DNA from: Flavobacterium sp. HSC-61S13
Lineage (GTDB): Bacteria > Bacteroidota > Bacteroidia > Flavobacteriales > Flavobacteriaceae
Direction: 5' to 3'
NCBI RefSeq assembly: GCF_024171535.1
Contig: NZ_JALJZV010000008.1
Span: 1-64,000, forward strand
DNA length: 64,000 nt
Below the pieces are notes generated by a model that saw nothing but the letters and a program-made list of their open reading frames with translations, had not been told where the DNA came from and ran no database searches. Position numbers and translations under genes: made by a program. Positions 21,208 through 59,523 of the stretch are shown here, piece after piece (position 1 is the stretch's first letter; each line of letters begins with the position of its first letter).

Positions 21208-21599
21208 TAGACGGAAATTTCAAAATGGAGCGTTGAATACATCGAAATCATCAGTGGTTCTTTCGATGAAGTATTGATGATCAAAATGCAGTTGTTTAAC
21301 GCGGGGTCCAACGGGAAATTTATATGTTAAAATAAAACATTTAATTTCCTTTTTTAAAATTCTTAAAAAAAGAAATTAATGTACAGTTTGCTGTTTTATT
21401 TTGTTATATATAGATGGTTTATAAAAATTATATAGCGCTTTTGTTATCGTAATCGCATTGTATTCAATAGTATGTTAGTAGATTAAAAAACGGTTGTTTT
21501 GCGATATATTTATATTTGGATTGTTTTTTTGCTCTTAAAGTTTTAGGTTTGCGATTATTTAGATCAAGACTAAATAAGAAACAATTTAAAACTTACCTT
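21208..21599. other. Intergenic region with a possible coding remnant
   Basis: About 390 bases precede the T9SS gene. A 40-codon open stretch without an ATG at its 5' end (about 21211-21330, ending GSNGKFIC) has protein-like composition and could be a remnant of a lost gene, but support is weak. The remainder is AT-rich and should contain the promoter of the large gene. Confidence 0.35.
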
Positions 21600-24500
21600 A
21601 TGAAAAAATGGATACTTTTTTTCAGCCTTTGTGCTGTTTGTCTTACCATGAGTTATGGTATGCAAACTGTGTTTTTTACTTCAAATTATAAATATTCGCT
21701 TGATAATTTATGGAATGAATGGCAAAGCGAATTGTCTTTAGCTAGCTGTGAGCCTCCTGAGAATCTAATGGTTAAAAACATTAAAAGTGGTGAAGCAACC
21801 CTGTATTGGAACGATACTAATGCGACCTCTTGGGAGTATAGTGTGGTACCTCTTGGAGGGGGAAAACCCACTGCCAATGGGCGACCTACTACAACTAAAG
21901 AAGTCATAGTAACTCATGATGACAAAGGTGCGGTACTAATGCCAAATACGGATTACGAATACTATGTTCGCGCGATTTGTACCAATAATGGATCTAGCAT
22001 TTGGCAGGGACCTTTTGACTTTAAAACCGCTTGTGGTATTTTGGCTTTACCTTTTGCAGAGGGCTTTGAAAACACTTCTATAACCAAAAATTGTTGGACT
22101 GTTGTTGACGACGCTAAAGACGGTACCGCAACGGCAAATCAATGGCAAAGCGCAACCGGCGCGACCAATGCTTATGAAGGAACTATCAGTATGCGATTTT
22201 TAGGTACTGGGGCGGAAACACTTCACAGTGATTGGTTGATTTCCCCAGCTATACAATTGCAAGGCGGCACCTATGCCATAACTTACTGGTACAAAACATC
22301 GGCCTTAGCAACGGCTAACAATGAGTTTGAAGTATTGCTATCAACATCAGGAACCGATATTACGAGTTTTACTCATGTTTTACAACCTTTAGAAAACCAA
22401 TCCGCCGTAGCTGTATTCAAACGTAAAGTATTATACGTGACAGGCATCACCGGAGCGGTAAACTTAGCTTGGCACGTAAAAACAAAAGGAGCGGTAACCC
22501 TATATGTCGATGCTGTTAATGTATCGGAAGTAAGTTGTATTAGCCCCGATGAAAAAATAGAAGTCAGCCATTTAAATAAGTCAGGCGCTCAGTTTTCATG
22601 GCAAGATCCAGCGAATACCAGCTGGGAATATTATGTACAACATGCTGGTGGAAAAACACCCGTAGGCAGTGGTAATCTAATCAATACTACAAAGGTCACC
22701 GTGACGAGTACCAACGGAATTGGTGCGGGACCTCTAGCGCCGAACACCGCTTATGAATTTTATGTTCGCGCAAACTGCGGTTCGGGAAAAACGAGTATAT
22801 GGGTGGGGCCATTCGCTTTCAAATTACCGTGTAACGAAGAGCTGATTCCGTTTTGGGAAGGCTTTAATAAAAACTCCAAAACACTTGCTTGTTGGACTGT
22901 TGTAGATCGAAATGGGGATGGAAACACGACCAGAGATCGCTGGAACGTCAATGGAATTAACTTCGAAGGAGATCAGTCGATGTATTTCAGAGGTTCGGAT
23001 GCGGTAGATCACGACGATTGGTTGATTTCTCCGACATTCAAAGTAGACGATACCAAAAGATACCGATTAAAATTTCATTACAGAACCAACAGCAGTTATA
23101 AAACGAGTTTTAGGGTTTTACTTTCTAAACAAGGTGTAAGTCCTTTGGATTTTACTGAGGAATTGCTGTCGCGAAAAGATGGGGATACCAATTGGAAACA
23201 GGAAACCCTCTATATAGGAAATATCAAAGGGGATATTAATATCGCTTGGCATCACGATACTAAAAGTAATATCGCTCACTTATATTTGGACAATATTTTC
23301 TTGGAAGAAATCAAAGGTTGTCCTGAACCGATTAACTTGGGTGTAAAAGACCAAGCAGAAAATGCTGTTACCTTGTCTTGGAATGATCCATTTGGTGTAA
23401 GTTGGGAATATGTCGTTCAAAAATCTGGGGGTAATGCCCCTATAGGCGCAGGAACACTTACTAATAAATCGGAACAACCCATCACTCAAGACAAAAACGG
23501 TGATCAACTGCAGGAGAATACCGAATACGAGTATTATTTGCGCAGTAGCTGTGGACCGGGAGAAGTGAGTCCGTGGTCAAAACCGTTTCAATTTAGAACC
23601 GGATGTAAGGTTTATGCGATTCCATTCTGGGAAGGCTTTAATAACAGCTCCAAATCATTTCCATGTTGGACGATTATCGACGCCAATGACGATGCTTTGT
23701 CCAGTAGCAATATTTGGCTTCGAAATTCGGCAAATTATGAAGGCGATTTAGCCATGCTTTTTATGGGTACCGGAAGCACAACACTACACGACGATTGGCT
23801 GATTTCACCAAGATTAAAATTAGATGTTTCCAAAACGTATCGCTTGAAATACCATTACAAAACCCACACCACGGAAACATCCGACTATGAGTTTGCCGTA
23901 TCGCTTTCAAACTCGGGTACCGATCCCAAACAATTTACTAAAATACTGATTCCCAAAAAGAAATATGTCGCAAAAGCGGATTGGTTCGAGGAAACGGCAT
24001 TCATCACTGCTGTTAGCGGTGATGTTAACATTGGTTGGCAGCAAACGAGTAAAGGGGTGTCCCGACTTTCTATCGATAATGTGTTTGTCGAAGAAGTTGT
24101 AAATTGTCCAGAGCCCTTAAATTTAGGAGCTAAAGACGAGACTTCTAGTAAGGCTACACTTTTTTGGCGCGATGATATGGGTGGTAAAAATTGGCAATAC
24201 TATGTTCAAAAAGCCGGAGGAATAACACCTACTGCAAGCGGTACAGCCACTGCCACCAAAGAAAATATAATTACGAAAGAACAATCGGGTAAAAATTTAG
24301 ATCCCAATACCGATTATGAATTTTATGTGCGTACACTTTGTGAAAAAGGAGGATATAGCGTTTGGAAAGGACCGTTTGTTTTTACAACCTTATGCAGCAC
24401 CTACCAAACCCCATTCTGGGAGGGATTTAATAGCGATTCCAAGTTGTACAGATGCTGGACAACCGTAGACAATCTAGGCGTAGTGAATCCTTTCGGTACC

Positions 24501-27500
24501 CTGTGGAAAATCACGGCAAACAGCAAATTTGAAGGCGATCAAGGATTGACGTTTTACACCAGCCGTTCCAACAAAAACTTTGACGATTGGTTGATTTCTC
24601 CAACCGTTGATTTAGACGGAGGAAACTATGTTTTAAAATATCATTATAAAACCATCGTAGGGGCCGGATTCAATTGTAAGTTTGAAGTGTTACTATCCGC
24701 CAACGGACAAGATCCCAAGGATTTTACCAAAGTGTTGGTCGCTTCTAAAAATTCGTCAACGGATGCGTATATAGAGGAAGTAGTGTTTTTTACTCATACA
24801 AAAGGTCCGGTGAATTTAGCGTGGCATATCGATAATAAAGATGTTAATGGAGTTTTCTTCCACTTGGATAATATTTCTTTAAAGAAAATAGAAAACTGCC
24901 CCGAACCCTATGCGATTACTATCAGTGAAATTTCTGCGACAGACTATAAAGTAACTTGGAAACAGGATGGAGGCATATCGAATTGGGAAGTACTAGTGTT
25001 GCCACACGGAGAACAACCATCGACCAACCCAACCAATACCATAAAAGTAAGTGGAGTTGCAGAACAACAGTTGAATAACTTAAAACTGGGTACGGCGCAT
25101 ACGGTTTATGTCAGAGCTTTATGCGCTGATGGAAAAACCTATAGCGATTGGTCTACAGGAGTTCCGCTGATTATTCGCGGTACCAATACCGATTGCTCCA
25201 AGGCGATTAATGTACCGGTCAATGCAACGACTGTTTGTGACAAAAAGGTGGAGGGCATGCTCTACGGATTGAATAAAGGATCTTTAGTAGCACCGACTTG
25301 TCATGCAACCATGGGTAATGATGTATGGTATGAGTTTACAGCTACTGCCGCTACACATATGGTATCAGTTATGAATTTTAAGAGTCTTTCAGGATCTACT
25401 TTAACTCCAGTTATGTTCGGTGCCATATACGATCAACCGTGTGCTACTATGAGTGCTACCGCTTTGGAATGTTTTACTTTAAGCAATAGAAGTATAGCCG
25501 GTATGGATAGTTTTAAGATTTTTAAAAACTTAGTTCCCGGACAGAAGTATTATCTGCGCTTCGGAATTAATGCGAGTACTAATCCAGATTTTATATTTGA
25601 CTTATGTATTACAACCCCGGTTTTCGGCTCGTTAATCGTAGAGGAAAGTGGGAAGAATAGATCTGTTGAACAACTTGTTAATCAGGTTTTAATCAATTCG
25701 AGTTGTGATTTGGTATCCAATGTGACCCTACAGGCGGGCGATGGAAAAAACACCATCAATACCTTGGGCTATTTTAACAAAGGCACTTCTAATTTTCCGT
25801 TTGAAGAGGGAATTGTGCTAGCAACACAAGCTATAGATGCCGTGCCAGGACCTTATGTGCCCAATTCGCCTAACAAACAAAAAGTACCGAAATGGGAGGG
25901 GGATCCAAATCTAAACCTCGTCATCGACAGAATTGGCGGAGCTGGATTCGGAACGAGTAAATATGTTTCGGTTTTGGAATTTGATTTTATATCGGTAAAA
26001 GATGCCTTAAAATTCGAATACATATTTGCTTCAGACAGTTACACCAACTGGTGTACTTATGCTTGTGGGCAGGGAGGAGCTTTATTTGCCGCTTGGATCA
26101 CCGATTTGAGTACAGGTGAAGGACAAAACTTAGCCCTTGTTCCGGGTACTGAATTGCCTATCGCCTTATCTTCTATACGCGATAAAGAAAAAGCAAACTT
26201 GAGTTGTCAAAGTGTGAACCCAGAATATTACGGTAGTCACTATGACAATGTTTACGGAAATCCTTTGGATGCTCCGATCAATTTCGTCGGATTAACCATA
26301 CCGATGAGTTCAGAGAGCATTGCCTTAAAACCCGGAGGTAAATACCGCATTAAACTAGCTATAGCTGATTTCTGCCCAACCCCGTCACATACTTCAGCCG
26401 TGTTTTTTAAAGCGGGAAGTTTTGACTTAGGTAAAGTAGATTTGGGAGAAGATTTGCTGGTTGAGACAAATAATGCGCTTTGTGTAGGGGATACCGTAAC
26501 CATTCAATCGGGAGTTAGCAACTCTGCGGATCTGAAAAAAGAGATATCGTGGTTAAAAGACGGTCAGCTAATCGCTGGGGCAAACGCTCCAGACTTAACA
26601 GTGACAGCGGCAGGGGTTTATGAAATGATTGTGACCTTCCCTGAACTCAATAACTGCGAGTCTAGAGGTACTAAAAAAGTAGAATTTTACCCAGCTATTT
26701 CGACGGTGGTTTTACAACCTGCTGAAATAGAAATATGCAGGATGAGTTTAAAAGCTTTGGAGGTCAATTTAAAACAAGTCGAAGTCGATATGTTTAAAAA
26801 CGTTGATCCGACATTGTTTACTACTGCATATTATACGACGGTAGAGGCGGCAGAAGCGGCTAAAGATAAGATTGAAAAACCGACCAATTACGAGCTGGGA
26901 AAAAAACCGAACGATCAGATTTTATACTTGCGTGTTGAAAACACGCTTACAGGCTGTCACGAGGTATTCCGCTTGTCGATAGTAGTACAAATGGGAGCAG
27001 AGCCTCCTGTATTTGAAGATCTTAGTGTTTGTGAGCACTACGTATTTCCAGCATTACCTCCAAACCAGTTTTACTATATGGAATCTGCTGGCGCAGGCAA
27101 GCAATATTTTGCTGAGGAGGTATTGAACCTTGTTGGTGAGCATCAAATCTTTGTATTGCAAGTAAATAATGACCAAGGTTGTTATGAGGAAACCTCGTAT
27201 AAAGTCACGATTACAGCACCGATCACTGCTGCAGTTTTTGAAGACGAAACTCTGGACTGTGAGTTTTATCAATTAAAACCGCTTCCAGCTTTTAACAAAT
27301 ATTATACGGAACCTGATGGAAAAGGTGTGGAATTAATTGCGGGAACTAAGGTAGCAACGGCACAGACAATTTATGTGTTTGCACAATCTAAAGACGGCTT
27401 GTGTCAAGACGAAAGTAGTTTTACCGTAAATTATAACGTATGTCCGATTCCAAAGGGAATTTCTCCAAACGGTGACGGTTTCAATGACCGACTAGATCTT

Positions 27501-27692
27501 ACGACACATGGTGTCCAAAGCCTTAAAATTTACAACCGTTGGGGGGCAGAAGTATACACCTATGGCAACGGTTATACCGACCAATGGCAAGGTCAGGATA
27601 AAGGCGGTAATAATTTACCAGACGGTACGTATTATTACGTAATTATAGCCAGAGATCAAACGCGTAGCGGATGGATTCAGATCAATCGCTAG
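21600..27692 (+). CDS. Giant T9SS-secreted multidomain adhesin-like protein
   Basis: This 2030-residue protein has a signal peptide (residues 1-20) and alternating fibronectin type III domains (near 50, 311, 572, 833 and 1099) and choice-of-anchor J/MAM-like domains (near 144, 410, 668 and 930; each begins with a PFxEGF motif and contains DDWLISP). Next come a domain with a GNDVWYEF motif (about 1197-1350), a choice-of-anchor L domain (about 1354-1610), an Ig-like segment (about 1627-1697), two similar cysteine-bearing repeats (about 1800-1950), and the gliding-motility/type-B sorting domain (1953-2030, ISPNGDGFNDRLD). It is expected to be exported by the type IX system and attached to, or shed from, the cell surface. 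The frame opens at 21516, but the ATG at 21600 starts the signal peptide. Confidence 0.93.
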   Translation: MKKWILFFSLCAVCLTMSYGMQTVFFTSNYKYSLDNLWNEWQSELSLASCEPPENLMVKNIKSGEATLYWNDTNATSWEYSVVPLGGGKPTANGRPTTTKEVIVTHDDKGAVLMPNTDYEYYVRAICTNNGSSIWQGPFDFKTACGILALPFAEGFENTSITKNCWTVVDDAKDGTATANQWQSATGATNAYEGTISMRFLGTGAETLHSDWLISPAIQLQGGTYAITYWYKTSALATANNEFEVLLSTSGTDITSFTHVLQPLENQSAVAVFKRKVLYVTGITGAVNLAWHVKTKGAVTLYVDAVNVSEVSCISPDEKIEVSHLNKSGAQFSWQDPANTSWEYYVQHAGGKTPVGSGNLINTTKVTVTSTNGIGAGPLAPNTAYEFYVRANCGSGKTSIWVGPFAFKLPCNEELIPFWEGFNKNSKTLACWTVVDRNGDGNTTRDRWNVNGINFEGDQSMYFRGSDAVDHDDWLISPTFKVDDTKRYRLKFHYRTNSSYKTSFRVLLSKQGVSPLDFTEELLSRKDGDTNWKQETLYIGNIKGDINIAWHHDTKSNIAHLYLDNIFLEEIKGCPEPINLGVKDQAENAVTLSWNDPFGVSWEYVVQKSGGNAPIGAGTLTNKSEQPITQDKNGDQLQENTEYEYYLRSSCGPGEVSPWSKPFQFRTGCKVYAIPFWEGFNNSSKSFPCWTIIDANDDALSSSNIWLRNSANYEGDLAMLFMGTGSTTLHDDWLISPRLKLDVSKTYRLKYHYKTHTTETSDYEFAVSLSNSGTDPKQFTKILIPKKKYVAKADWFEETAFITAVSGDVNIGWQQTSKGVSRLSIDNVFVEEVVNCPEPLNLGAKDETSSKATLFWRDDMGGKNWQYYVQKAGGITPTASGTATATKENIITKEQSGKNLDPNTDYEFYVRTLCEKGGYSVWKGPFVFTTLCSTYQTPFWEGFNSDSKLYRCWTTVDNLGVVNPFGTLWKITANSKFEGDQGLTFYTSRSNKNFDDWLISPTVDLDGGNYVLKYHYKTIVGAGFNCKFEVLLSANGQDPKDFTKVLVASKNSSTDAYIEEVVFFTHTKGPVNLAWHIDNKDVNGVFFHLDNISLKKIENCPEPYAITISEISATDYKVTWKQDGGISNWEVLVLPHGEQPSTNPTNTIKVSGVAEQQLNNLKLGTAHTVYVRALCADGKTYSDWSTGVPLIIRGTNTDCSKAINVPVNATTVCDKKVEGMLYGLNKGSLVAPTCHATMGNDVWYEFTATAATHMVSVMNFKSLSGSTLTPVMFGAIYDQPCATMSATALECFTLSNRSIAGMDSFKIFKNLVPGQKYYLRFGINASTNPDFIFDLCITTPVFGSLIVEESGKNRSVEQLVNQVLINSSCDLVSNVTLQAGDGKNTINTLGYFNKGTSNFPFEEGIVLATQAIDAVPGPYVPNSPNKQKVPKWEGDPNLNLVIDRIGGAGFGTSKYVSVLEFDFISVKDALKFEYIFASDSYTNWCTYACGQGGALFAAWITDLSTGEGQNLALVPGTELPIALSSIRDKEKANLSCQSVNPEYYGSHYDNVYGNPLDAPINFVGLTIPMSSESIALKPGGKYRIKLAIADFCPTPSHTSAVFFKAGSFDLGKVDLGEDLLVETNNALCVGDTVTIQSGVSNSADLKKEISWLKDGQLIAGANAPDLTVTAAGVYEMIVTFPELNNCESRGTKKVEFYPAISTVVLQPAEIEICRMSLKALEVNLKQVEVDMFKNVDPTLFTTAYYTTVEAAEAAKDKIEKPTNYELGKKPNDQILYLRVENTLTGCHEVFRLSIVVQMGAEPPVFEDLSVCEHYVFPALPPNQFYYMESAGAGKQYFAEEVLNLVGEHQIFVLQVNNDQGCYEETSYKVTITAPITAAVFEDETLDCEFYQLKPLPAFNKYYTEPDGKGVELIAGTKVATAQTIYVFAQSKDGLCQDESSFTVNYNVCPIPKGISPNGDGFNDRLDLTTHGVQSLKIYNRWGAEVYTYGNGYTDQWQGQDKGGNNLPDGTYYYVIIARDQTRSGWIQINR

Positions 27693-47985: not shown

Positions 47986-48909
47986 ATGTATATGACAAAA
48001 TGTTTACTGTTTTTCTGTTGTTTTTTTCTTGGCTTTTCAGCTTCAGCTCAACTTCAAAAGAAGGCAGCGTCGCCCGATGCTAGAGTTCAAATTCCTTTTG
48101 AACTAACGGCCTACAACAACATACTAATACCCGTAATTTTAAACGGAAGAGACACGGTAAAACTGATGTTTCACACGGCTGCTGATGCGGTCAATCTAAC
48201 CGAAGAAGCCACCAAACGCGTGAAATTGGATTTCCAGCGTACCGACAGTGTCAAAAGTTGGGGTGGCGACCAAAACACTTCTCGATTTAGCCCGGTCAAT
48301 ACGGTGCAGCTCGGGACTATGGTATTTGAAAATGTTCCAATATGGGAAGACACCAACTCAGGACAGGGTAGCGATGGGAAATTTGGAATAAATCTTTTTG
48401 AAGGAAAAACCATTCAAATCGATTTTGAACACAAAGAATTGGTATTGCGAGATAACTTACCTTCGGATATAGAAACATATTCCAAACAACGGTTAATCCA
48501 GGAGAACGGTTATTTATTTATTCACGCTTTAGCTACGATTGATTCAAAAATATTGATTAATAAATACTTGATTCACTCGGGTTATGCGGGAGCGGTATTA
48601 TTAGATGATGTATTTGTCGAAAAATTCGGTATAGCTGATAAACTGACTGTCATCAATCAAAAAGAACTCAAAGACTCCTTTGGAAATGTATTAAAAACCC
48701 AAAGGGCTATATTGCCGCAATTCCGCATCGGTAATATCCTTTTAGAGGAGGTTCCCGTCGGTTTCTTTAGCGGTGCTTTAAGCCGTCAAAAGATGAGTGT
48801 TGTTGGAGGCGATATTTTAAAGCGCTTTCAAATGGTCCTAGATGCGAAACGGGAGTTTATTTATTTAAAGAGCAATGCATTAATAAACGATATATATAAG
48901 GGCGTTTGA
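47986..48909 (+). CDS. Retropepsin-like periplasmic protein lacking the catalytic aspartates
   Basis: The 307-residue protein has a signal peptide (about residues 1-22) and two aspartic-protease-like lobes. In each lobe the usual D-T/S-G catalytic motif is altered: H63-T-A in the first lobe and H197-S-G in the second. The flanking family features (LGTMVFENVPIW, DGKFGINLFEGK, VVGGDILKRFQMVLD) are kept. It may be a non-catalytic binding protein. It precedes the alpha-2-macroglobulin gene by 76 bases, in the same direction. The ATG at 47992 is an alternative start. Confidence 0.85.
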   Translation: MYMTKCLLFFCCFFLGFSASAQLQKKAASPDARVQIPFELTAYNNILIPVILNGRDTVKLMFHTAADAVNLTEEATKRVKLDFQRTDSVKSWGGDQNTSRFSPVNTVQLGTMVFENVPIWEDTNSGQGSDGKFGINLFEGKTIQIDFEHKELVLRDNLPSDIETYSKQRLIQENGYLFIHALATIDSKILINKYLIHSGYAGAVLLDDVFVEKFGIADKLTVINQKELKDSFGNVLKTQRAILPQFRIGNILLEEVPVGFFSGALSRQKMSVVGGDILKRFQMVLDAKREFIYLKSNALINDIYKGV

Positions 48910-48985
48910 TAAAGTTTTAACTCTATTTAAAAACGTTATAGCCGAGCTATTTTCTTTGATTACCACCCACTACTATACAAAAAAC

Positions 48986-51900
48986 ATGAAAAATACGATT
49001 TGCCTTTTAATGATTCTATGCGGTTTAACGGTAACCGCACAAAAAAACATCAGCATCGAGGAGCAATGGAAACGAATCGAAGAACAAATTAGCGAAGGAA
49101 AATTTTCGAGTTTGCAACCCGACATTAACCGCGTTTTAGAGCAAGCGCGTAAAGAAAAGGACTATCCCAATGCGATTAAGGCGCTTTTTTACGATGCTAA
49201 AATCAAGATAGTTACTTCGGAAAAAGACGATAATGTTGAGTATATTTTTGACGCTTTAAAAAGTGAATTAGCTCATGCAAAGGGAGTAGATAAATCAATT
49301 ATATCGGGATATTTAGCGATGTTATATTCTACTTATTATAATGAAAACCAGTGGAGTATATATAGTAGGACAAAGTTGGAAAATGAAGCTGGAATGCATT
49401 TAAATGTTTGGACAAGTGGGACATTTTGGAAAACAATAGATGCTTACTACAGGCAAGCGTTAGTCGACAAAAAAACACTTCAAAAAACCCAGATTAAAGA
49501 CTTGAAAGATTCTTTTGTTTGGGTAGATGCGTCGGACATGAAACTTAATTTTTCAGTTTATGATGTTCTAGTATTTCAATACAGTACTTTTCTAAATTCA
49601 AATCGTTTTGATTTAACAAAAGAATTAGAAAAAGAGAATAAACAAAAAAGTAAGAAATTATTAGATGATTTGGCGATCGATTTTCAGAAAAAAAAATATC
49701 TGGAAGGTGAAATTTACACGCGATTATATCAATTTCAATCTGAAACATCAGATGAGAATATTTTAGAAATATCTGAAAAGTATAGGGAATTAGCCAATAA
49801 ATATTCTTCATTACCCATTACAGCATATATATACAGAAATTGGATTAATGCAGCCTATAAGAGTGCAGAAAATAGTTGGGATAAATCAGCCTACGATAGC
49901 GTATTAGAGTTGATAGATGTTGTGAAAATGAAATATCCCGATAGTGATATCAACGAGGATCTGACTCTGTTAAAAAATAAAATAACTGCCCCTATTTTAA
50001 AAGTATCAATTGAAAAATATTTGATTCCTGAACGTAATAACCCCATATTAATTAAACACAACAATATAAATCAGGTTTATGTAAAAGTATTGAAATACGA
50101 CAGTACTGAAAATGATTTTGGTGAAATAAACTATAGAAAAAACGAAGATTCACAAAAAGACTATTACGATAAAATTATAGATAAATACCCATTAATTAGG
50201 GAATATCAGTCGACTTTAAAAGCTTTTGACGACTATAAAGCCCATACTACTTTACTAAATCTAGAAGCACTGCCAATAGGATCCTATGTTATATTATTTT
50301 CTAACGAACCTTTCTCAGCAATTACAGATAAAAGTGCGGTAGTCATGAATCAAATTTATGTAACTAATGCAGCAGTTATTTTTAATAAAAATACTGTTCG
50401 AGTTTATGATCGATATACGGGAAAACCTATGGCTAATAAACCGATGGTGGTTTATAGTGAAGATTATAGTGAAGAGGATGTAATTGCTGGCGAATTAGAT
50501 AACGATCAGTTTAAAAGGGAAGTGAAAACCGATAGAAATGGAGAATATAATCTTGAATTTATAGATGACGATACAGAGGATTTTTATTTTAAATTGGAAG
50601 GGGAGAATATCTATTATACTAATAGATACAGTGATTTTTATGATAGTGACTATGAAGGAAAAGAAATGACATTTAAAACAAAAATATTTACTGATAGAGG
50701 TATTTATCGACCAGGTCAAACGCTTTACTTTAAAGGAGTAGTTACTCATATAATCGCTGACAAACAGCGGGTAAAGGCAAACCATAAAGTTGATATATCG
50801 TTAAGAGATGCCAACTATAAAGTAATTCAAACCTTGAATTTAATCACCAATGAATTTGGTTCGGTACAAGGGGAGTTTGTTTTACCCCAATCGGGTTTAC
50901 TGGGAAATTATTCCTTGCAATCTTCGTTAGATGGTTATAAGGGTTTTTCGGTAGAAGAATACAAACGACCAAAGTTTGAGGTGCTGTTAGATACCGTAAA
51001 GGGAAACCATCATTTTGGCGATGAGATCAAAGTAAGTGGCAAGGCCAGCGCTTTTTCAGGAGCGGATATCGATCAAGGCAAGGTGACTTACCGCGTTTTT
51101 AGACAGGCATTGTATTCTTTCGATCCTTATTATAGGACGCCAAATTGGTATCGAAATAGCGATTCTGTAGAAATTGCCTTTGGAACGCTGCTCACCGATG
51201 CAAACGGACGTTTTGAAATTCCGTTTAAAGCAATCGCTGCAGATCAAAAGGAAGATAAGCCGCGTACCTATAGCTATAGAGTGGAAGTAGCGGTCATGGA
51301 TGATAATGGCGAAACGCATACAGCTGAAAGCGCCGTATTGATCGGTGATTTGGGGCTGTCATTTACCTATAACTTACCGGAGGTAATTACGCCAGATCAG
51401 CTCAATCAATTTGCGGTTCGGGTCACTAATTTAAACGATCAGTTAGTCAATGCCCAAGGGGGAATGGAAATTTATCCTTTAGTGGTTCCTAATCGCGTTG
51501 TAAGAGACAGTCCTTTTGAGGTGGACTACCAGCATTATACAGAGGAAGAATTTATCCAATTATTTCCACACGAACCTTATGGCGATGAAAGGGATAGGTC
51601 AAAATGGAAGAGAGGTTCTAAGTTGTTAGAAACCACTTTTGACACACAGCAATCAACGGAGATTCATTTTAAACAAAACAAGCCTTTGAATGATGGTAAA
51701 TATATCATTAAAAGCTGGGTTTGGGATAAAGAACAAAAAATTGAATCCGAGCAGTTTTTTGAAGTAAAAAATAAAATGGCGAAACTCAGTGATTCACCAT
51801 CAATATTGGCGATGGACTTGGATAAAAGCAGCTATAAGATTGGAGATATAGTTCAATTGCGACTTTACTCATCAGAACAAGATTCATATGCTGTAGTCTC

Positions 51901-54900
51901 CTTGTTGTGTAATAACGAGACGATGATAAAAAAGAACATTGACTTAGGTGAGAAAATAGGTGTATTTGAATTTCCTGTCTTGGCTTCCTATGTTGGTCGT
52001 ATTCAAATAGAGGTATTAATGATTAAATACAACAGTGTTATTTTGAAAAATCTGGACGTTAGTGTCCTGTACCCAACCCAACAGTTAGATATAAAAATGG
52101 CTACTTTACGAAATAAATTATACCCTGGAGCAAAAGAGAAATGGGAATTAACCATATCAGGCTCGAAAAAAGATCAGGTACTAGCAGAAGTTTTGGCGGG
52201 TATGTATGACGTGTCTTTAGATCAGTTTAAAACTAATAACTTTGATGAGAAATTTGTATTTCTCCGGTCTTACAATTCATATAAAGTTTCAGAAAGATTT
52301 AGAACTTCAGATGCTTTTGAAGTAGAGCATAATACTAATCGGTTACCAAATTACTATTACAATTCAAATAAGGGAAGATTGGACCAACCGTATTGGAATT
52401 TCTACGATTATTATTTTAGTAGCTATAGAATGAAGCAAGCACTTTACCGTGCAGGTAGTGCATTAGAGGGTAAAGTAGCTGGAATCCGAATAGAGGATGG
52501 CGAGGAGGACTATAATGCTGTTTTTGTAACTACAGCTTATTCAACAGCTTCTTCCATCAATGTCAGGGGAACAGCAGCATTAAATGAACAGATAAAACCT
52601 ATAAATATAGTTGATGGGGAAATATTTGATGGAGATATTAACAGTATTTTGAAAGACGATATATTATCGACAAATACAATTACGGGAGACCAAGCTACAT
52701 CTTTGTATGGAAGCCGTGCGATTCATGGAGTCACAGTAATAACGACTAAGAAAGGAGCTGAATTAGAAAAATTAAAACGAGTAGAAGTCCGTAAAAATCT
52801 ACGGGAGACGGCTTTCTTTTACCCCAATTTAAAAACCGACAAAAGCGGCAATGTCAAAATAGAATTTACCATGCCGGAGAGTCTGACGGAATGGAAGTTT
52901 ATGGCTTTTGCCCATACCAAAGATTTACAGACGGGGTATTTTGAGACCCGTGTTAAAACGCAAAAAGATTTGATGATAGTACCCAATGTACCTCGATTTT
53001 TACGCGAGGGAGACCGGGTGGTTGTAACGGCAAAAATCGTAAATCTTTTAGATGGAGAAACCGCTGGTCAGGCGAGTTTGATGTTGTTTGATGCCCTGAC
53101 GATGAAACCGATTGATCATTTGTATAACAATCAAAATAACCTTCGGGAATTTAAATTAACAGCTAGCAGTTCTACTGCGGTGAACTGGGAAATTACCGTG
53201 CCGAAAAACAGTCCTCCGATAACATATCGTATGGTAGCTGCAACGGCTGATTTTTCCGATGCGGAAGAAAGTGTGCTTCCCGTATTAACCAATCGAATAT
53301 TGCTTACCGAAACCCTGCCTATATTCGCAAAAGAGGGACAGCGGAAAACCTTTGAACTCGATGCTTTAAAAAATAGTAGTTCGAAAACCTTAGAACATTT
53401 TAAGTTGACTTTGGAAATGACGACCAATCCCATCTGGATGGCTGTTTTTTCATTGCCCTACTTAAGAGAGTATCCGTATGATTGTTCCGAACAGTTGTTT
53501 GGCCGTTTGTATGGAAATACAATCTCGCAACAATTGTTGAATTCAAATCCGAAGATAAAAGCGGTTTTTGACGATTGGAATTCCAAGGGAGAATTAAAAT
53601 CCCCTTTAGAGAAAAATCCAGATCTCAAAAATATTTTAATAGAAGAAACCCCTTGGCTGCGCGATGCGGAATCCGATACCGAACAAAAAAAGCGATTGGC
53701 CTTGTTGTTTGATTGGAATAAAATGCAAAATGAATACGGAGTGGTTTTGGAAAAATTGCAAAAAAGACAACTTTCAAACGGCGGATTTTCCTGGTTTGAT
53801 GGCGGCGCTGTAAACCCCAATATTACTCTTGAAATTTTAAGCGGTTTTGGAAGTTTAAAGAAAATGGGTGTAAAAAAAGAAATAGCCGATTCGTATGCAG
53901 CTATAGAAGACAAGACTCTACAGTTTTTAGACCAGTATTACTATAAAAACTACTTGGATACTAAGGAGAAAGAACAGGGTCTTCAAAACGATCAAATACA
54001 GTATTTATATGCGAGAAGTTTCTTTTTAGACGAAAAACCACTGAGTGCAGATTTGAAAAAAATGGCAGCTGCTTATGTGTCGATGATATCGGAAAAACCT
54101 ATGGAAAGCGCCTTGTCCATTAGAGTAATGGAAGCCTTGATTTTGCATCGATTTGGAAAAACAACCGAGGCAAAGACGATACTGCATCAAATAAAAGAAA
54201 GAGCGGTGATGTCAGACGAAATGGGCATGTATTGGAAATCCAATCAAGCGGGTTGGCAGTGGTATCAAACCCCTATTGAAACGCAAGCCTTGCTGATAGA
54301 AGCTTTTGATGAGGTTGCTCGTGATGAAAAAGCTGTAGCGGAAATGAAGATTTGGTTGTTAAAAAACAGAGCTACAAACGGCTGGAAGTCGACCAAGGCA
54401 ACCACGAGGGCGGTATATGCACTGTTAAATACGGGTGCATCACCGTTGGATGCTGCAAGCGTTGTCGATATATGGGTGGGCAAGCAGCAAATAGATTTAA
54501 ATCAAGAAGCACAGTCGGGTAGCGGTTATACAAAACACACTTGGAACAAAGAAGCTATTTCAAAAGATCAAGCTACAGTAACGGTTGACAAACAAAGTGC
54601 GGGTACCGCATGGGGAGCTTTGTATTGGCAGTATTTCGAAGACTTGAATAAAGTTGATAAAACGGCTACTAACATAAAAATCCACAAGCAAATGTACATC
54701 GCAACCAATTCGGCTTCAGGTCCTGTTTTAAAGGCGGTAACCGATTCAAATCCGATTAAAGTGGGCGATAAAGTAACGGTACGCCTTGAGGTAACCACCG
54801 ATCGCGATATGGAATTTATACACCTCAAAGACATGCGCGCCAGCGGATTGGAGCCCATCAATGCAATTTCTGGATATAAATGGGGCAATCGCACCGCTTA

Positions 54901-55090
54901 TTACCAAGAGACCAGAGATGTGGCTACAAACTTCTTTATCGACGCGCTAAAAAAGGGAACCTATGTGTTTGAATATGAACTCAGAGCCAATACAGCTGGG
55001 GTGTTTTCAAACGGGATAGCCACTTTACAAAATATGTACGCACCGGAAATGAGTGCGCATACTGAAGGTGTCGTAATAGAAATAAAATAA
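48986..55090 (+). CDS. Alpha-2-macroglobulin with a SusC-type plug insert
   Basis: The 2034-residue protein has a signal peptide (about residues 1-20) and MG domains, including the bait-region MG2-like DRGIYRPGQTLYFKG. A segment at about residues 1156-1255 resembles the plug domain of SusC-type receptors (INVRGTAALN, INIVDGE, SLYGSRAIHGVTVITTKKG), and the MG7/ANATO-like TEWKFMAFAHTKDLQTGYF follows. The thioester is CSEQ at C1500-Q1503, then a terpenoid-toroid helical region (about 1500-1800) and a receptor-binding-like C-terminus. It should trap proteases outside the cytoplasm. The frame opens at 48956, but the ATG at 48986 starts the signal peptide. The upstream gene encodes a degenerate protease-like protein. 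Confidence 0.93.
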   Translation: MKNTICLLMILCGLTVTAQKNISIEEQWKRIEEQISEGKFSSLQPDINRVLEQARKEKDYPNAIKALFYDAKIKIVTSEKDDNVEYIFDALKSELAHAKGVDKSIISGYLAMLYSTYYNENQWSIYSRTKLENEAGMHLNVWTSGTFWKTIDAYYRQALVDKKTLQKTQIKDLKDSFVWVDASDMKLNFSVYDVLVFQYSTFLNSNRFDLTKELEKENKQKSKKLLDDLAIDFQKKKYLEGEIYTRLYQFQSETSDENILEISEKYRELANKYSSLPITAYIYRNWINAAYKSAENSWDKSAYDSVLELIDVVKMKYPDSDINEDLTLLKNKITAPILKVSIEKYLIPERNNPILIKHNNINQVYVKVLKYDSTENDFGEINYRKNEDSQKDYYDKIIDKYPLIREYQSTLKAFDDYKAHTTLLNLEALPIGSYVILFSNEPFSAITDKSAVVMNQIYVTNAAVIFNKNTVRVYDRYTGKPMANKPMVVYSEDYSEEDVIAGELDNDQFKREVKTDRNGEYNLEFIDDDTEDFYFKLEGENIYYTNRYSDFYDSDYEGKEMTFKTKIFTDRGIYRPGQTLYFKGVVTHIIADKQRVKANHKVDISLRDANYKVIQTLNLITNEFGSVQGEFVLPQSGLLGNYSLQSSLDGYKGFSVEEYKRPKFEVLLDTVKGNHHFGDEIKVSGKASAFSGADIDQGKVTYRVFRQALYSFDPYYRTPNWYRNSDSVEIAFGTLLTDANGRFEIPFKAIAADQKEDKPRTYSYRVEVAVMDDNGETHTAESAVLIGDLGLSFTYNLPEVITPDQLNQFAVRVTNLNDQLVNAQGGMEIYPLVVPNRVVRDSPFEVDYQHYTEEEFIQLFPHEPYGDERDRSKWKRGSKLLETTFDTQQSTEIHFKQNKPLNDGKYIIKSWVWDKEQKIESEQFFEVKNKMAKLSDSPSILAMDLDKSSYKIGDIVQLRLYSSEQDSYAVVSLLCNNETMIKKNIDLGEKIGVFEFPVLASYVGRIQIEVLMIKYNSVILKNLDVSVLYPTQQLDIKMATLRNKLYPGAKEKWELTISGSKKDQVLAEVLAGMYDVSLDQFKTNNFDEKFVFLRSYNSYKVSERFRTSDAFEVEHNTNRLPNYYYNSNKGRLDQPYWNFYDYYFSSYRMKQALYRAGSALEGKVAGIRIEDGEEDYNAVFVTTAYSTASSINVRGTAALNEQIKPINIVDGEIFDGDINSILKDDILSTNTITGDQATSLYGSRAIHGVTVITTKKGAELEKLKRVEVRKNLRETAFFYPNLKTDKSGNVKIEFTMPESLTEWKFMAFAHTKDLQTGYFETRVKTQKDLMIVPNVPRFLREGDRVVVTAKIVNLLDGETAGQASLMLFDALTMKPIDHLYNNQNNLREFKLTASSSTAVNWEITVPKNSPPITYRMVAATADFSDAEESVLPVLTNRILLTETLPIFAKEGQRKTFELDALKNSSSKTLEHFKLTLEMTTNPIWMAVFSLPYLREYPYDCSEQLFGRLYGNTISQQLLNSNPKIKAVFDDWNSKGELKSPLEKNPDLKNILIEETPWLRDAESDTEQKKRLALLFDWNKMQNEYGVVLEKLQKRQLSNGGFSWFDGGAVNPNITLEILSGFGSLKKMGVKKEIADSYAAIEDKTLQFLDQYYYKNYLDTKEKEQGLQNDQIQYLYARSFFLDEKPLSADLKKMAAAYVSMISEKPMESALSIRVMEALILHRFGKTTEAKTILHQIKERAVMSDEMGMYWKSNQAGWQWYQTPIETQALLIEAFDEVARDEKAVAEMKIWLLKNRATNGWKSTKATTRAVYALLNTGASPLDAASVVDIWVGKQQIDLNQEAQSGSGYTKHTWNKEAISKDQATVTVDKQSAGTAWGALYWQYFEDLNKVDKTATNIKIHKQMYIATNSASGPVLKAVTDSNPIKVGDKVTVRLEVTTDRDMEFIHLKDMRASGLEPINAISGYKWGNRTAYYQETRDVATNFFIDALKKGTYVFEYELRANTAGVFSNGIATLQNMYAPEMSAHTEGVVIEIK

Positions 55091-55231: not shown

Positions 55232-55753
55232 TTAACCAGCTTTTTTTCTATTTAAAATATTTATAGAATCCTTTAGTTGATCAAGTTGCTTATCCTTAAT
55301 GTAATTCATTTCTTTTCCATTAGATTCCCCCATTTTATAAGCGATTGTCCCTACAGTTGTGCTAATAGATAGAATAACAAACCAAAATAACTTACTTGAT
55401 ATTAAATTTATAATATCATTTTTCACTCCTTCTTTATTTGGCTCAATCTCTTGACAAGAATTTATGGCTCCTTTTAATTTGGCAAGTTCTTTATTAAAAG
55501 ATTCACGATAGTTTCCTGAAAATTTAGTTTGATCCACCAATTTGAAAGCTTTGAGTGGCCCACTATCATTATTATAATTTAATCTAATAAAATGTTCAAC
55601 TTTTGAAACCCATGAGTTTAATTCTATGCTAGCGTCTGAGTAATAAATTAGATGCCCATTAAGATCTGTGCCGGGTCTCCTATTATTATCAAAATTTAAT
55701 TTATCCCCTTCTTTTATTAAAGAATCAAGTACTTTTCTCTTGCTTTTTTTCAT
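55232..55753 (-). CDS. Membrane-anchored hypothetical protein, 173 aa, accessory
   Basis: I do not recognise this protein. It has a basic, soluble N-terminal domain of about 115 residues and one membrane helix at about 122-140 (FWFVILSISTTVGTIAY). A charged C-terminal tail rich in Lys and Asp follows. The first 20 codons are Lys-rich. It is AT-rich like the neighbouring ABC-3C genes and lies 260 bases downstream of them on the same strand, with its own palindrome (55808-55824). It may be a fourth, membrane-located component of that system or an unrelated accessory gene. Confidence 0.7.
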   Translation of the reverse strand: MKKSKRKVLDSLIKEGDKLNFDNNRRPGTDLNGHLIYYSDASIELNSWVSKVEHFIRLNYNNDSGPLKAFKLVDQTKFSGNYRESFNKELAKLKGAINSCQEIEPNKEGVKNDIINLISSKLFWFVILSISTTVGTIAYKMGESNGKEMNYIKDKQLDQLKDSINILNRKKAG

Positions 55754-56012: not shown

Positions 56013-57860
56013 TTATTCTATTAATACTTTTGGTATTAAAGCATTACCATCATGGAATTCTTCTACGATGTGAATGTTATTTAAATGAGATAAGGCTTCA
56101 ACAGGAATATGCTCTAAAACAATCATCTGAAAATTTCCAGTATTACTCTTTCTCGTATGAATAAAGTTGTCAAGTAGCTCAAATGCCTTTGTTATTTTAT
56201 AATCATCGCTCTGTGGATCATTCGTTTTTCTCTTTCCGTTCGTCCCATAATATGGCCTACTAGGTTGATCTATTATTAGGAAAGGGGCAACAAATGGAGA
56301 TTTGTTTTGAAAGATTACTTCATGGATTGCAAGAGAAAAAAACAACTGTAGAAACATATGATTAGAACTGCTGCCGACGTTCTCTATGTAAGAAGTTTTA
56401 GGTTTTCTTAAAAGCAATGCTTTATTTTTATAATCAAAGACAGGTTGATATGTTGAATAATTTGAGAGAGCTTTTTCAGATTCGACCATGTATTCACTAA
56501 TAATTTCTTCCGTGAGTTTAATTGTTAATTCTCGTTTTTCTTCAGTATTTACTACAACTAATTGCATAATCTCCTCTTGTAAATCTCTGATTTCTTCATC
56601 ATATGTCGGAAAAGAAGATGATGAGTTTGTTGAGAATATTTCAAGTTTTGATTTTATTTGGCCTAAAAAGAAATATTTTTCTCTTTCATTTTCAAAACTC
56701 TTATTATCTGTAGATAATAAATCTAATTTTGATTTTATTATTCCTAGATCATTTTCAAAACCCTTTATTGTATCCTTAACTTGTATGTCTATTGGAGTGT
56801 TACTGCTATACGCTTTTCGGATTGAAATTAAATCTTTAGTATATGACTCGACAAGCTCTTCAAAAATTGATGTTTTAATTATTTCAGAATCATTCTCAAT
56901 TAAGAACTCAAGTGGTTTAAGACTGTCTTCAAGATTTGATAGAGACTTTTTATAATTAGTATATTCAGATGAAAACTGATTTAAATTTTTAATTTTTCTT
57001 TGTAAAGTGTAATATAATGATTGTAATTTTTCTTTTTCAGAGCTTATCACAGACTCTGTCTCATATCCTTTAATAGCTTTTTCAAGTTCAACTAATAAAT
57101 TCTCAGTATTGGTATCATTGCTAACTATATTATATTCCTTAGCTTTTTTCAAAATTTCTATACGCTCCTGTTTGAAATCTGAAGTTTTTGATAATATTGT
57201 TTTGTTTTTCCTTATAGATTTAGCTAAATGGTTTTCGAGTTCTGCTTTTTTTTCACTTTTCAAAACATTCTCAACAGTTTCTATTCCTAAAGCTAAATCA
57301 AATATTCTTGGAAGTGCCTCTTTATATCTGATTTCATTTTGTTTATCAAAAAAAACACCTTGATCATTTTCAATAATATTTCCTGAGATAGTATTAAACA
57401 TTAAAAAGTACCGTAGTGAAATTTTGGTACCGGACTTTATATAATTACTGCCATATCCTGTTGGAAATTTAGCATCTCTATCTATTTGGAATTCTGTCTC
57501 AATAATTGATTTTATTGCATTTTCGGAGTTATTTGATGATACAATCAAAGGTATCTCGCCAAATGAAGAAAAGTAGTAATTATTGGAAACTTTACCTTCT
57601 GATAGGGCTTGTCTTGCTAAGGTATAATTTTTGTCATTTATCGAAATATTTATTCCATACCACAAAACATTCTCATTAATCATACTTTCCGATATTCTGC
57701 TTTTGCTGGCAAAGAAACAATAATCAATAATTTCAAGAATAGCACTTTTACCTGTATGACTTCCACCAGTGATTAAATTGACTTTATTTCGTTTAAATTC
57801 TATTTCTCTAATTCTACCATTTTTTAACCATAAAATGATTTTATTTATATTGAATTTCAT
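56013..57860 (-). CDS. ABC-3C system ATPase (DUF3732-type)
   Basis: The 615-residue protein is an SMC/Rad50-like ABC ATPase. Walker A is GGSHTGKS (residues 32-39). A long coiled-coil arm covers about 190-440. Walker B is FLIIDQPS near residue 529, with DQ where most ABC proteins have DE, which is typical of the DUF3732 group. An H-loop-like VLEHIP lies near residue 583. The start overlaps the middle-component gene by four bases (ATGA). It is the motor component of an ABC-three-component conflict system. Confidence 0.9.
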   Translation of the reverse strand: MKFNINKIILWLKNGRIREIEFKRNKVNLITGGSHTGKSAILEIIDYCFFASKSRISESMINENVLWYGINISINDKNYTLARQALSEGKVSNNYYFSSFGEIPLIVSSNNSENAIKSIIETEFQIDRDAKFPTGYGSNYIKSGTKISLRYFLMFNTISGNIIENDQGVFFDKQNEIRYKEALPRIFDLALGIETVENVLKSEKKAELENHLAKSIRKNKTILSKTSDFKQERIEILKKAKEYNIVSNDTNTENLLVELEKAIKGYETESVISSEKEKLQSLYYTLQRKIKNLNQFSSEYTNYKKSLSNLEDSLKPLEFLIENDSEIIKTSIFEELVESYTKDLISIRKAYSSNTPIDIQVKDTIKGFENDLGIIKSKLDLLSTDNKSFENEREKYFFLGQIKSKLEIFSTNSSSSFPTYDEEIRDLQEEIMQLVVVNTEEKRELTIKLTEEIISEYMVESEKALSNYSTYQPVFDYKNKALLLRKPKTSYIENVGSSSNHMFLQLFFSLAIHEVIFQNKSPFVAPFLIIDQPSRPYYGTNGKRKTNDPQSDDYKITKAFELLDNFIHTRKSNTGNFQMIVLEHIPVEALSHLNNIHIVEEFHDGNALIPKVLIE

Positions 57861-58297
57861 AATTGAATTCTTAAGTTTAAGTATAGTTTGTCTTCATTTG
57901 CTGAAAGTAGCGATACGATATTGTTAGCAGCTTGAAATATTTTTTTTGCTCTTTTACCCATTTTAGAATTATATTCTAAGGTTTTAATCTTATATATTAT
58001 GCCATCTTTAATCTCAATATATCCCATTTCTATCAAGTATTGGAGTGATGAAAATGTTAAACTCAAAGAATCGTAATATCTAAGGTTTATATTTGAAAAA
58101 TAATTAGTCTTTTCTGCAATTAGTTTTTCTATACTAGTTACCTGAGTAGTTGATCTGGCCAAATAATTTAAACACTCATTATGAGTGACAAGTGGCAATA
58201 TTAAAGTGATTTTAGCAATTGATAGTTGAGTATCTAAATTTAATACAGAGCTAATTGTGACAATGCCGATACCGATGTTATTATAATCTATTTTCAT
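57857..58297 (-). CDS. ABC-3C system middle component
   Basis: The 146-residue protein is largely helical with a likely winged-helix region (about 75-115). It overlaps the nuclease gene by one base (TAATG, 58295-58299) and the ATPase gene by four bases. Its size, fold and place between the two match the small middle component of ABC-3C systems. It is assigned mainly by context; no catalytic motif is visible. Confidence 0.8.
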   Translation of the reverse strand: MKIDYNNIGIGIVTISSVLNLDTQLSIAKITLILPLVTHNECLNYLARSTTQVTSIEKLIAEKTNYFSNINLRYYDSLSLTFSSLQYLIEMGYIEIKDGIIYKIKTLEYNSKMGKRAKKIFQAANNIVSLLSANEDKLYLNLRIQL

Positions 58298-59523
58298 TAT
58301 TTATGTTTTTCCCAATCTTTTCTCCAACCTATAATTGGTTCGTCCGAAAGCGCATAAAACTTTCCATTACTCATATCAACATCAAACTCTTGTCCTGTTA
58401 GTTTGAGAGAATGTTTAAGCATAGTTTTAAGTACTTCAATACCTTTACTATTATATTGTTCATCTGAATAATGACCCACATGTTGTAAACGAAATTCACT
58501 ATCCCATAAGTTATATGCGTTATCTTTTAAAGTTTTTAACTCTAAATCAGTAATTTCTCCTTCCCTTTTCCAGTTCTCAATGTTATTTAATAATTTGAGT
58601 TTGAATAGAGTTAATCTACTAATGTATTCAATATCAGTTTTTTCAACATACCCAATTTCCATTAACTGTTTAATAAAAATCTGATTTTCTAATTTATCTG
58701 GAAGTAAGCCCTTATATTCTTGAACAACTAATGTATTATTTCTGTAAATATCAAAGTACCCTCTATATTTTCTATAAAACTCATCAAAAGTAATTTCAAT
58801 TTTCAAACCATTCTTGACTTGTATAAAATTATCTTTACGTAATTTAGAATCAATAGTAGTAAATGCTTGATCGATTTTGTTTTGCGGAACCATTTTAGAT
58901 TTAATAGCTTGTTCACATTTTGTAAGTATATCGCTATCATCTAGGTGAAAGAATGTATTTAATAAAAAATGTTCAATAACCTCTTCATCTAAATTTATTA
59001 CATCATTAATATAATCTTTTAATTCTATATTGGTTGTATTGCTACATAAGCTTTGGAAATAACTGATGACATCGTTTTTGTTCTTAGAACCACTTTGAAG
59101 TTCGTTAATTATACCTACTACTTTATTAGATTTATTAGATGATTTATTGCTTGCTAAAACAAAACTTGTTTTCTGTATAAAACTTAGCTGAGCTTGAATT
59201 GTTTCTCGTGAGTCATTTTTATCGCTTATTACCTTAGACCAGTTTGAGAATGTTTTCCACATATCTAAATCTGAGGTAGTCAAATTTATTGGATTGCCCA
59301 CAGTATTTTTTTTAATAGTATGCTTTAATTGATAAAGCATCTGATGATTGTTCCTTAAATCAGTATGTACATCATCTTTAACTTCTAACCCAACAGATTC
59401 ATTAGGTTGCAACATAAGTACTTTCCATAAGAAGAAGTAGTACTGATAATCGAAACCGATCGATTTTGATTCAGCAGCTGTTTTTTCTATATGTGTTTTA
59501 TTATCATTCATAGTACTTAACAT
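58297..59523 (-). CDS. ABC-3C effector with N-terminal Cap4/DUF4297-like nuclease
   Basis: The 408-residue protein starts with a restriction-endonuclease-like domain: a GFDYQYYFF helix (residues 23-31), an E47-x-K-D-D51 strand and a Q65-L-K67 strand, as in Cap4/DUF4297 dsDNA nucleases. The C-terminal half (about 220-408) is the domain that links ABC-3C effectors to the complex. The first ATG (59523) is given; the ATG at 59511 is an alternative. Dam-like DNA cleavage upon sensing phage is the expected role, unproven here. Confidence 0.85.
   Translation of the reverse strand: MLSTMNDNKTHIEKTAAESKSIGFDYQYYFFLWKVLMLQPNESVGLEVKDDVHTDLRNNHQMLYQLKHTIKKNTVGNPINLTTSDLDMWKTFSNWSKVISDKNDSRETIQAQLSFIQKTSFVLASNKSSNKSNKVVGIINELQSGSKNKNDVISYFQSLCSNTTNIELKDYINDVINLDEEVIEHFLLNTFFHLDDSDILTKCEQAIKSKMVPQNKIDQAFTTIDSKLRKDNFIQVKNGLKIEITFDEFYRKYRGYFDIYRNNTLVVQEYKGLLPDKLENQIFIKQLMEIGYVEKTDIEYISRLTLFKLKLLNNIENWKREGEITDLELKTLKDNAYNLWDSEFRLQHVGHYSDEQYNSKGIEVLKTMLKHSLKLTGQEFDVDMSNGKFYALSDEPIIGWRKDWEKHK

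Follow-up and report, generated by a model that had tools for sequence, protein, structure and literature searches.

The window analysed here, the whole stretch of 64,000 nucleotides from Flavobacterium sp. HSC-61S13, contains a gene for an alpha-2-macroglobulin (A2M) of 2034 amino acids (aa). In the middle of this protein a segment resembling the plug of SusC/RagA-type outer-membrane transporters is present, without the beta-barrel. The open frame (48956–55090, plus strand) begins at a TTG codon at position 48956. The features of the gene are the following.

48986–55090, plus strand: A2M gene, 2034 aa, ATG start
50684–50923, plus strand: MG2 domain, aa 567–646 (Pfam PF01835, 8.5e-18)
51812–52165, plus strand: A2M_BRD domain, directly 5' of the bait slot, aa 943–1060 (Pfam PF07703, 7.4e-6)
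52223–52789, plus strand: bait slot between A2M_BRD and MG7, aa 1080–1268, model confidence mostly below 50 at aa 1084–1200
52448–52771, plus strand: SusC/RagA-type plug segment without barrel, aa 1155–1262 (family models, solved chains, plug profile)
52514–52540, plus strand: tentative degenerate TonB-box-like stretch NAVFVTTAY, aa 1177–1185 (by eye, below the profile threshold)
52601–52771, plus strand: folded plug core, aa 1206–1262 (model confidence and Foldseek)
52808–53065, plus strand: MG7 (Pfam A2M) domain, aa 1275–1360 (Pfam PF00207, 3.9e-21)
53480–53494, plus strand: thioester motif DCSEQ, aa 1499–1503
54677–55048, plus strand: bMG10 domain, aa 1898–2021 (Pfam PF17973, 2.5e-35)

The plug segment and its place in the A2M fold

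The original prediction had described four plug phrases, no barrel and a position upstream of the thioester domain, and on all three points it was right. The phrases are GKVAGI (aa 1162–1167), INVRGTAALN (aa 1191–1200), INIVDGE (aa 1206–1212) and SLYGSRAIHGVTVITTKKG (aa 1239–1257). MG7 begins at aa 1275, directly after the plug, and the CxEQ motif (around aa 1500–1503) is located some 240 residues 3' of it. A 133-aa piece matches the NCBIfam models TIGR04056 (SusC/RagA, 2e-16) and TIGR04057 (1.5e-5) and Pfam Plug (0.0032), while a scan of the whole protein gives 2.2e-4 for TIGR04057 and 0.24 for Plug; all these matches are under the curated cut-offs, that of TIGR04056 being for the full-length protein. 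Solved RagA and SusC chains match residues 1155–1262, approximately, with E-values of 7e-6 to 2e-4. Hidden Markov models (HMMs) were built from 33 SusC-type N-termini not belonging to A2Ms (40 stretches, minus seven without an N-terminus by pattern); with the plug HMM the window slot scores 69 bits, and none of 3300 shuffled slots reaches 10 bits. Of 34 plug positions that SusC proteins conserve strongly, the window plug retains 21. It is not among the 32 matches listed in a Pfam Plug search of the whole genome. The SusC HMMs detect in the window slot neither a TonB box (at 5 bits or more) nor the N-terminal carboxypeptidase D regulatory-like domain (NTE). The stretch NAVFVTTAY occupies the place at which a TonB box scores inside the plugs of three related loci (L042, L116 and L185, between a GKVSG-like and the RG motif), but does not itself score.

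The MG7 domain of human A2M (chain residues 730–822) aligns to residues 1267–1359 of the window protein (E 0.004); the human bait region, which we take to comprise residues 690–728 or so, directly precedes MG7. An AlphaFold model of residues 940–1371 in context, made with 29 sequences, has a mean per-residue confidence (pLDDT) of 64 and a predicted TM-score (pTM) of 0.33, and is used for its local parts only. The strands before the slot are well predicted, confidence falls mostly below 50 at residues 1084–1200, and a folded piece follows. Its six best fold matches are A2M, CD109 and complement C4 structures, with E. coli A2M (5a42) second and Salmonella A2M (4u48) eighth; immunoglobulin folds of antibodies and receptors come later. 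These A2M-type matches cover about 400 columns at TM-scores of about 0.2–0.3 and root mean square deviations (r.m.s.d.) of 18–29 Å. Judged by the human MG7 alignment and the A2M-type fold matches of the model, the plug fills the A2M bait slot, and its position thus supports the earlier suggestion of a bait region.

In a model of the plug alone, made with 83 A2M plugs, block confidence is 94–97 at residues 1208–1257, 87 beyond and 48–66 at residues 1148–1197. Every one of the first 17 PDB matches found by Foldseek is a TonB-dependent transporter; at the top stands SusC (8aa4), with an E-value of 0.006 and an r.m.s.d. of 13 Å, and no match is below 0.001. Several other transporters fit at 1.6–1.8 Å over 51–70 columns. 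A plug fold, which the original prediction expected from structure prediction, is thus predicted for the core, but the first half, including GKVAGI, lacks a confident fold.

The MG2, A2M_BRD, MG7 and bMG10 matches all exceed the curated Pfam cut-offs. The window A2M has a signal-peptide-like start and no lipobox. Among the 134 near-full-length A2Ms of the set described below, a hydrophobic, signal-like start is present in 133 by a crude test and a lipobox-like motif in 0, so the A2M is likely a soluble periplasmic protein. CxEQ, the thioester motif of A2Ms (PMC4498604, available part), is present in 82 of 88 plug-bearing A2Ms. It was not seen in the expected stretch of the other six (L103, L104, L167, L176, L186 and L193), so some plug-bearing A2Ms may work without a thioester. 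Residues 17–120 of the window A2M gave an unexpected PADLOC match (CARF4--CARF_PDDEXK, 2.1e-6), and the genome itself holds a second A2M domain match (G000:C16:66595-66843, in an open frame of 1832 aa).

Slot content, exchange and constraint among related A2Ms

In a family sample of 199 genomes, with at most 13 candidates scored per genome, A2Ms with the same MG7 match either through the plug or in MG7 only. By our own count 103 genomes have such an A2M; 60 were examined and 25 of these contain a plug, giving at least 25 of 103. A scan of the genome collection, with 80 stretches kept of at least 578 confirmed, found plug forms among those kept in Flavobacteriaceae, Weeksellaceae, Sphingobacteriaceae, Chitinophagaceae, Fulvivirgaceae and a metagenome-assembled Prevotellaceae genome.

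The slots of 165 distinct A2Ms from all loci, the window included, were scored with the SusC HMMs. A plug (10 bits or more) is found in 88, a count that is no prevalence because the query contained a plug and the survey favours plug forms. The NTE (10 bits or more) is found in 69 slots and a TonB box (5 bits or more) in 89; for each of the three, none of 3300 shuffles scores. The commonest SusC-derived form is NTE, TonB box and plug together (48 slots), followed by plug only (21, the window among them), TonB box only (19), TonB box and plug (14), NTE and plug (9), NTE and TonB box (8) and NTE (4), with none of the three in 42. The plug is weak (6–9 bits) in four of the 14 slots with TonB box and plug, which count as TonB box only in the tree, short-bait and pair analyses. 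At four loci (L046, L059, L079 and L081) adjoining A2M genes carry differing slots; at L046 and L081 all three modules are present in one copy and absent from the other. A divergent A2M match at L125 (G318) has all three ahead of the part that matches MG7.

Slots without NTE or strong plug number 65, or 63 after removal of two of unplaced length. With the TonB-box HMM, built from SusC alone, 23 of these 63 short baits score 5 bits or more. Looser patterns find a TonB box in 27 (shuffle mean 0.87, maximum 5 in 1000), GKVAGV in 20 (mean 0.83, maximum 5), IRG in 15 (mean 0.92, maximum 5) and at least two SusC-like motifs in 19 (mean 0.04, maximum 1), an excess that is inflated, since the patterns were written after the baits had been seen and the shuffles ignore kinship. 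Control segments elsewhere in the same A2Ms have 0.25–0.45 motif matches per 63. As the short baits are related, such sequence counts show the presence of motifs, not independent gains. The TonB box comes last in 16 of the 19 baits with several motifs, two have the SusC order and one lacks the box; in SusC, the box comes first in 16 of the 17 sequences having it plus another motif. When one bait was used as query for the reversed order elsewhere in 198 genomes, the frames listed were of 883–2140 aa, which are SusC or A2M lengths, and one was of 222 aa.

Slot content is unstable and often exchanged among relatives. In 17 pairs sharing no row and chosen by downstream likeness, a choice that favours the result (one further pair lacks the upstream part), median identity amounts to 0.47 for the slot, compared with 0.75 for the preceding 140 residues and 0.89 for the following 450. 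The slot is below the downstream part in all 17, and its content differs in 11. When 14 pairs were chosen instead by the 250 residues upstream of the slot, the medians are 0.78 upstream, 0.475 in the slot and 0.845 in the 450 residues downstream. In these the slot is below downstream in 13 and below upstream in 12, and its state differs in nine; the upstream part also varies, being below downstream in 13. In two pairs (L141/L143 and L103/L104) likeness is greater in the slot than upstream of it. On an A2M tree made with FastTree without the slot, 23 changes are needed for the plug, 21 for the NTE and 43 for the TonB box.

The window has a close sister in Flavobacteriaceae UBA1682 (L131), with 92–97% of the aligned flanking DNA alike. 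Between the two A2Ms, residues 1–60 and approximately 1307–2034 are 93–100% identical per block, with 97% likeness downstream, while identity drops to 38–55% at residues 120–598 and to 27–70% at residues 899–1246. Summed four-fold sites agree at 20 of 50 and 23 of 51 positions inside the divergent blocks, compared with 247 of 278 downstream. Such divergent blocks between near-identical flanks are the product of block exchange by recombination. The L131 slot has no plug; SLTGSVRGLSI, VVVDGV and FLEEVIT in it resemble, by eye, scraps of SusC. A plasmid search (near mode) with the DNA for residues 1–1138 of the window A2M returned no match, leaving spread by plasmids unsupported.

For the origin of the modules, a tree was built of NTE-to-plug units from 56 A2Ms and 31 SusC proteins; it covers slots with both NTE and plug, so the window is outside it. 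At least three changes are needed, a single A2M clade is not rejected (p-AU 0.52), and 19 of 84 inner branches are well supported. A2M plugs retain RG, DG, YG, NG and TTK in most rows, and the arginine of IRG in 0.96 of 85 plugs. Other positions conserved in SusC are relaxed, an aspartate from 0.91 to 0.35 and an arginine from 0.91 to 0.39. An A2M plug HMM is preferred by 32 of 51 held-out A2M plugs and by none of 17 held-out SusC proteins. The window plug scores alike with the SusC and A2M HMMs (74.0 versus 71.7–77.5), which favours neither as its own source. Recent capture from a resident SusC is not supported, given as few as three changes for the A2M units and a single clade that is not rejected; an old capture from SusC, then spread among A2Ms, fits the sequences best.

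Ratios of non-synonymous to synonymous substitution (dN/dS) are 0.04–0.25 for the plug in seven pairs and 0.06, 0.00 and 0.09 for the NTE in three; plugs and NTE are under purifying selection in the pairs measured. Conservation of the insert, on which the original prediction depended, is therefore mixed: slot content comes and goes, but is constrained in pairs where this can be measured.

Neighbouring genes

One gene upstream of the A2M was annotated.

47986–48909, plus strand: retropepsin-like aspartyl protease gene (Pfam PF13650, 2.5e-9), 47 base pairs upstream of the A2M open frame

In a clustering of the genes around 143 A2Ms, the retropepsin cluster had two members, from the window and L131, and the gene sits where likeness between these two is down to about 75%. 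The retropepsin-like protease is a possible A2M companion. The 25 largest clusters, viewed by eye with no family scan, are mostly housekeeping-like genes, often on the opposite strand, and none looks like SusC, SusD or TonB. A plug search near the A2Ms found four plug proteins (in L157, L185, L192 and L197). On the co-occurrence with barrels or SusD genes that had been proposed as a check, there are four nearby plug proteins on one side and no SusC-like or SusD-like genes in the 25 largest clusters by eye on the other; SusD was not searched for.

Downstream of the A2M, a Lamassu defence system is found at 56013–59523 on the minus strand (PADLOC: LmuB 5e-81, LmuC 6e-9, LmuA 1e-37), separated from it by a gene of 173 aa (55232–55753), where L131 has a different gene of 287 aa. 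With Lamassu in the window and that different gene in L131, the site adjoining the A2M looks like a defence hotspot. Elsewhere in the window (21516–27692, plus strand) a protein of 2058 aa is encoded that combines four stretches of choice-of-anchor J type with cleaved-adhesin and fn3 domains and ends in a type IX sorting-like region.

Proposed function of the bait and comparison with known systems

As far as sequence can tell, the bait is made of SusC-derived material: a plug in the window, and in relatives NTE, TonB box and plug, or short SusC-like peptides. SusC transporters are abundant outer-membrane proteins of these bacteria. The explanation we prefer, tentatively and at somewhat less than an even chance, is that the A2M is a periplasmic protease trap with a bait that mimics the periplasmic face of SusC. 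A protease attacking the periplasm-facing end of SusC would also cut its look-alike in the A2M; the cut would free the bait, the trap would close and the thioester would bind the protease, so that the trap would serve as a decoy of the transporter. The bait might be replaced often because the attacking proteases change. For E. coli A2M, cleavage is described as freeing the disordered bait and triggering the trap (PMC4498604, available part); for the window A2M, all steps from bait cutting onward are what we infer. Mimicry is favoured because position, constraint, retained non-TonB peptides and frequent exchange fit together. Among these peptides, GKVAGV and IRG are retained although we know of no role for them in TonB binding. 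Rather doubtful is the wider proposal that Bacteroidota possess an integrated decoy, a fast-changing, recombining bait that copies the periplasmic face of SusC and catches enemy or runaway proteases aimed at it. If true, bacteria would have their own counterpart of the decoy domains built into immune receptors. It is not settled what bacterial A2Ms protect against; a bait copying a named cell protein would point to the usual targets of the proteases caught, making the question testable.

Several observations weigh against mimicry. Mimicry is not needed by all these A2Ms, as 42 of 165 slots have no SusC module, and the window copy is plug only, without NTE or clear TonB box. Proteases cut a disordered bait more readily than a plug core that is folded, and neither a protease nor a cut site or partner protein is known. 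The slot of L141/L143 is more alike than both flanking parts. The seven dN/dS pairs overlap in members and were picked for alignable slots, the MG7 stretch has lower values (0.03–0.11) than the plug in most pairs, and TonB boxes have ratios of 0.30, 0.37, 0.43 and 2.14 on 11–27 codons, with one more pair unchanged. Constraint on the window plug itself is not measurable, since its close sister L131 is plug-less. The inflated motif excess in the short baits belongs here as well.

Coupling to a TonB partner, suggested by the original prediction, gains from the TonB boxes in 89 of the slots surveyed and 23 of the short baits and loses in the window, with its degenerate, sub-threshold stretch. The NTE-TonB box-plug unit would bind the C-terminal domain of TonB and keep or pull the trap at transporter mouths. 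The sequence VDEVVV of Bt1763 is a TonB box that has been tested (PMC7782687, available part), and precedents are found in the available parts of PMC7782687 and PMC6434023. The reading is nevertheless unlikely: no TonB box scores in the window slot or in 20 other plug-only slots, dN/dS of the box is not low, and the retained GKVAGV and IRG peptides are left unexplained. We consider it quite unlikely that the modules are a relic, a SusC N-terminus that long ago entered a tolerant loop and was inherited, swapped and left to decay with no SusC-specific role. The unrejected single origin, the gradation between complete units and mere fragments and the freely changing slot would suit this; purifying selection on plug and NTE would not, nor would the TonB-box signal in divergent short baits, where the box stands last, opposite to SusC and unlike simple decay. 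Mimicry, TonB docking and a relic may overlap.

It is very improbable that the A2M plug moves into SusC barrels while their own plug is displaced during transport, so that the trap would come to lie beneath the open pore. In vitro, open states of Bt1763 are the only ones to contain the plug (PMC7782687, available part), and the IRG arginine is kept; the relaxation of other SusC-conserved positions and the many plug-less baits argue against it. By analogy with the anaphylatoxin domain of complement C3, which presumably lies near the corresponding place of the fold, cutting might free the plug as a signal, and the place is similar; no receptor is known, many relatives have no domain in the slot, and this seems the most improbable of the readings.

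In the literature, no paper on an A2M with a plug or on A2Ms of Flavobacterium or Bacteroidetes was found, and SusC is absent from the titles and beginnings of abstracts covered; domain architectures that combine an A2M with a plug may be present in databases under automatically given names. With SusC/RagA transporters such as Bt1763 and RagA, the window module shares the plug sequence and core fold, and many relatives share the NTE and TonB box; unlike them, it lies in the middle of an A2M, without barrel, NTE or clear TonB box. Human A2M, CD109 and complement C4 share the A2M-type fold (CD109 and C4 by fold, human A2M by MG7 sequence), with a bait or anaphylatoxin part that is presumably not transporter-derived. 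Anopheles TEP1, which we take to be a mosquito immunity gene without SusC-like bait, is likewise a thioester protein, described as 'exceptionally polymorphic', and its alleles are highly divergent (PMC2576239, available part). The A2Ms of E. coli (ECAM/YfhM) and Salmonella (SaA2M) have the A2M fold, CxEQ thioester and bait slot in common with the window A2M. The E. coli protein is described as anchored to the inner membrane (PMC4498604, available part), whereas lipoboxes are absent from the present set. In the same part of that text the bait is described as largely disordered and no SusC part is mentioned (the sequences themselves were not compared), while in the A2Ms described here SusC modules fill the slot.
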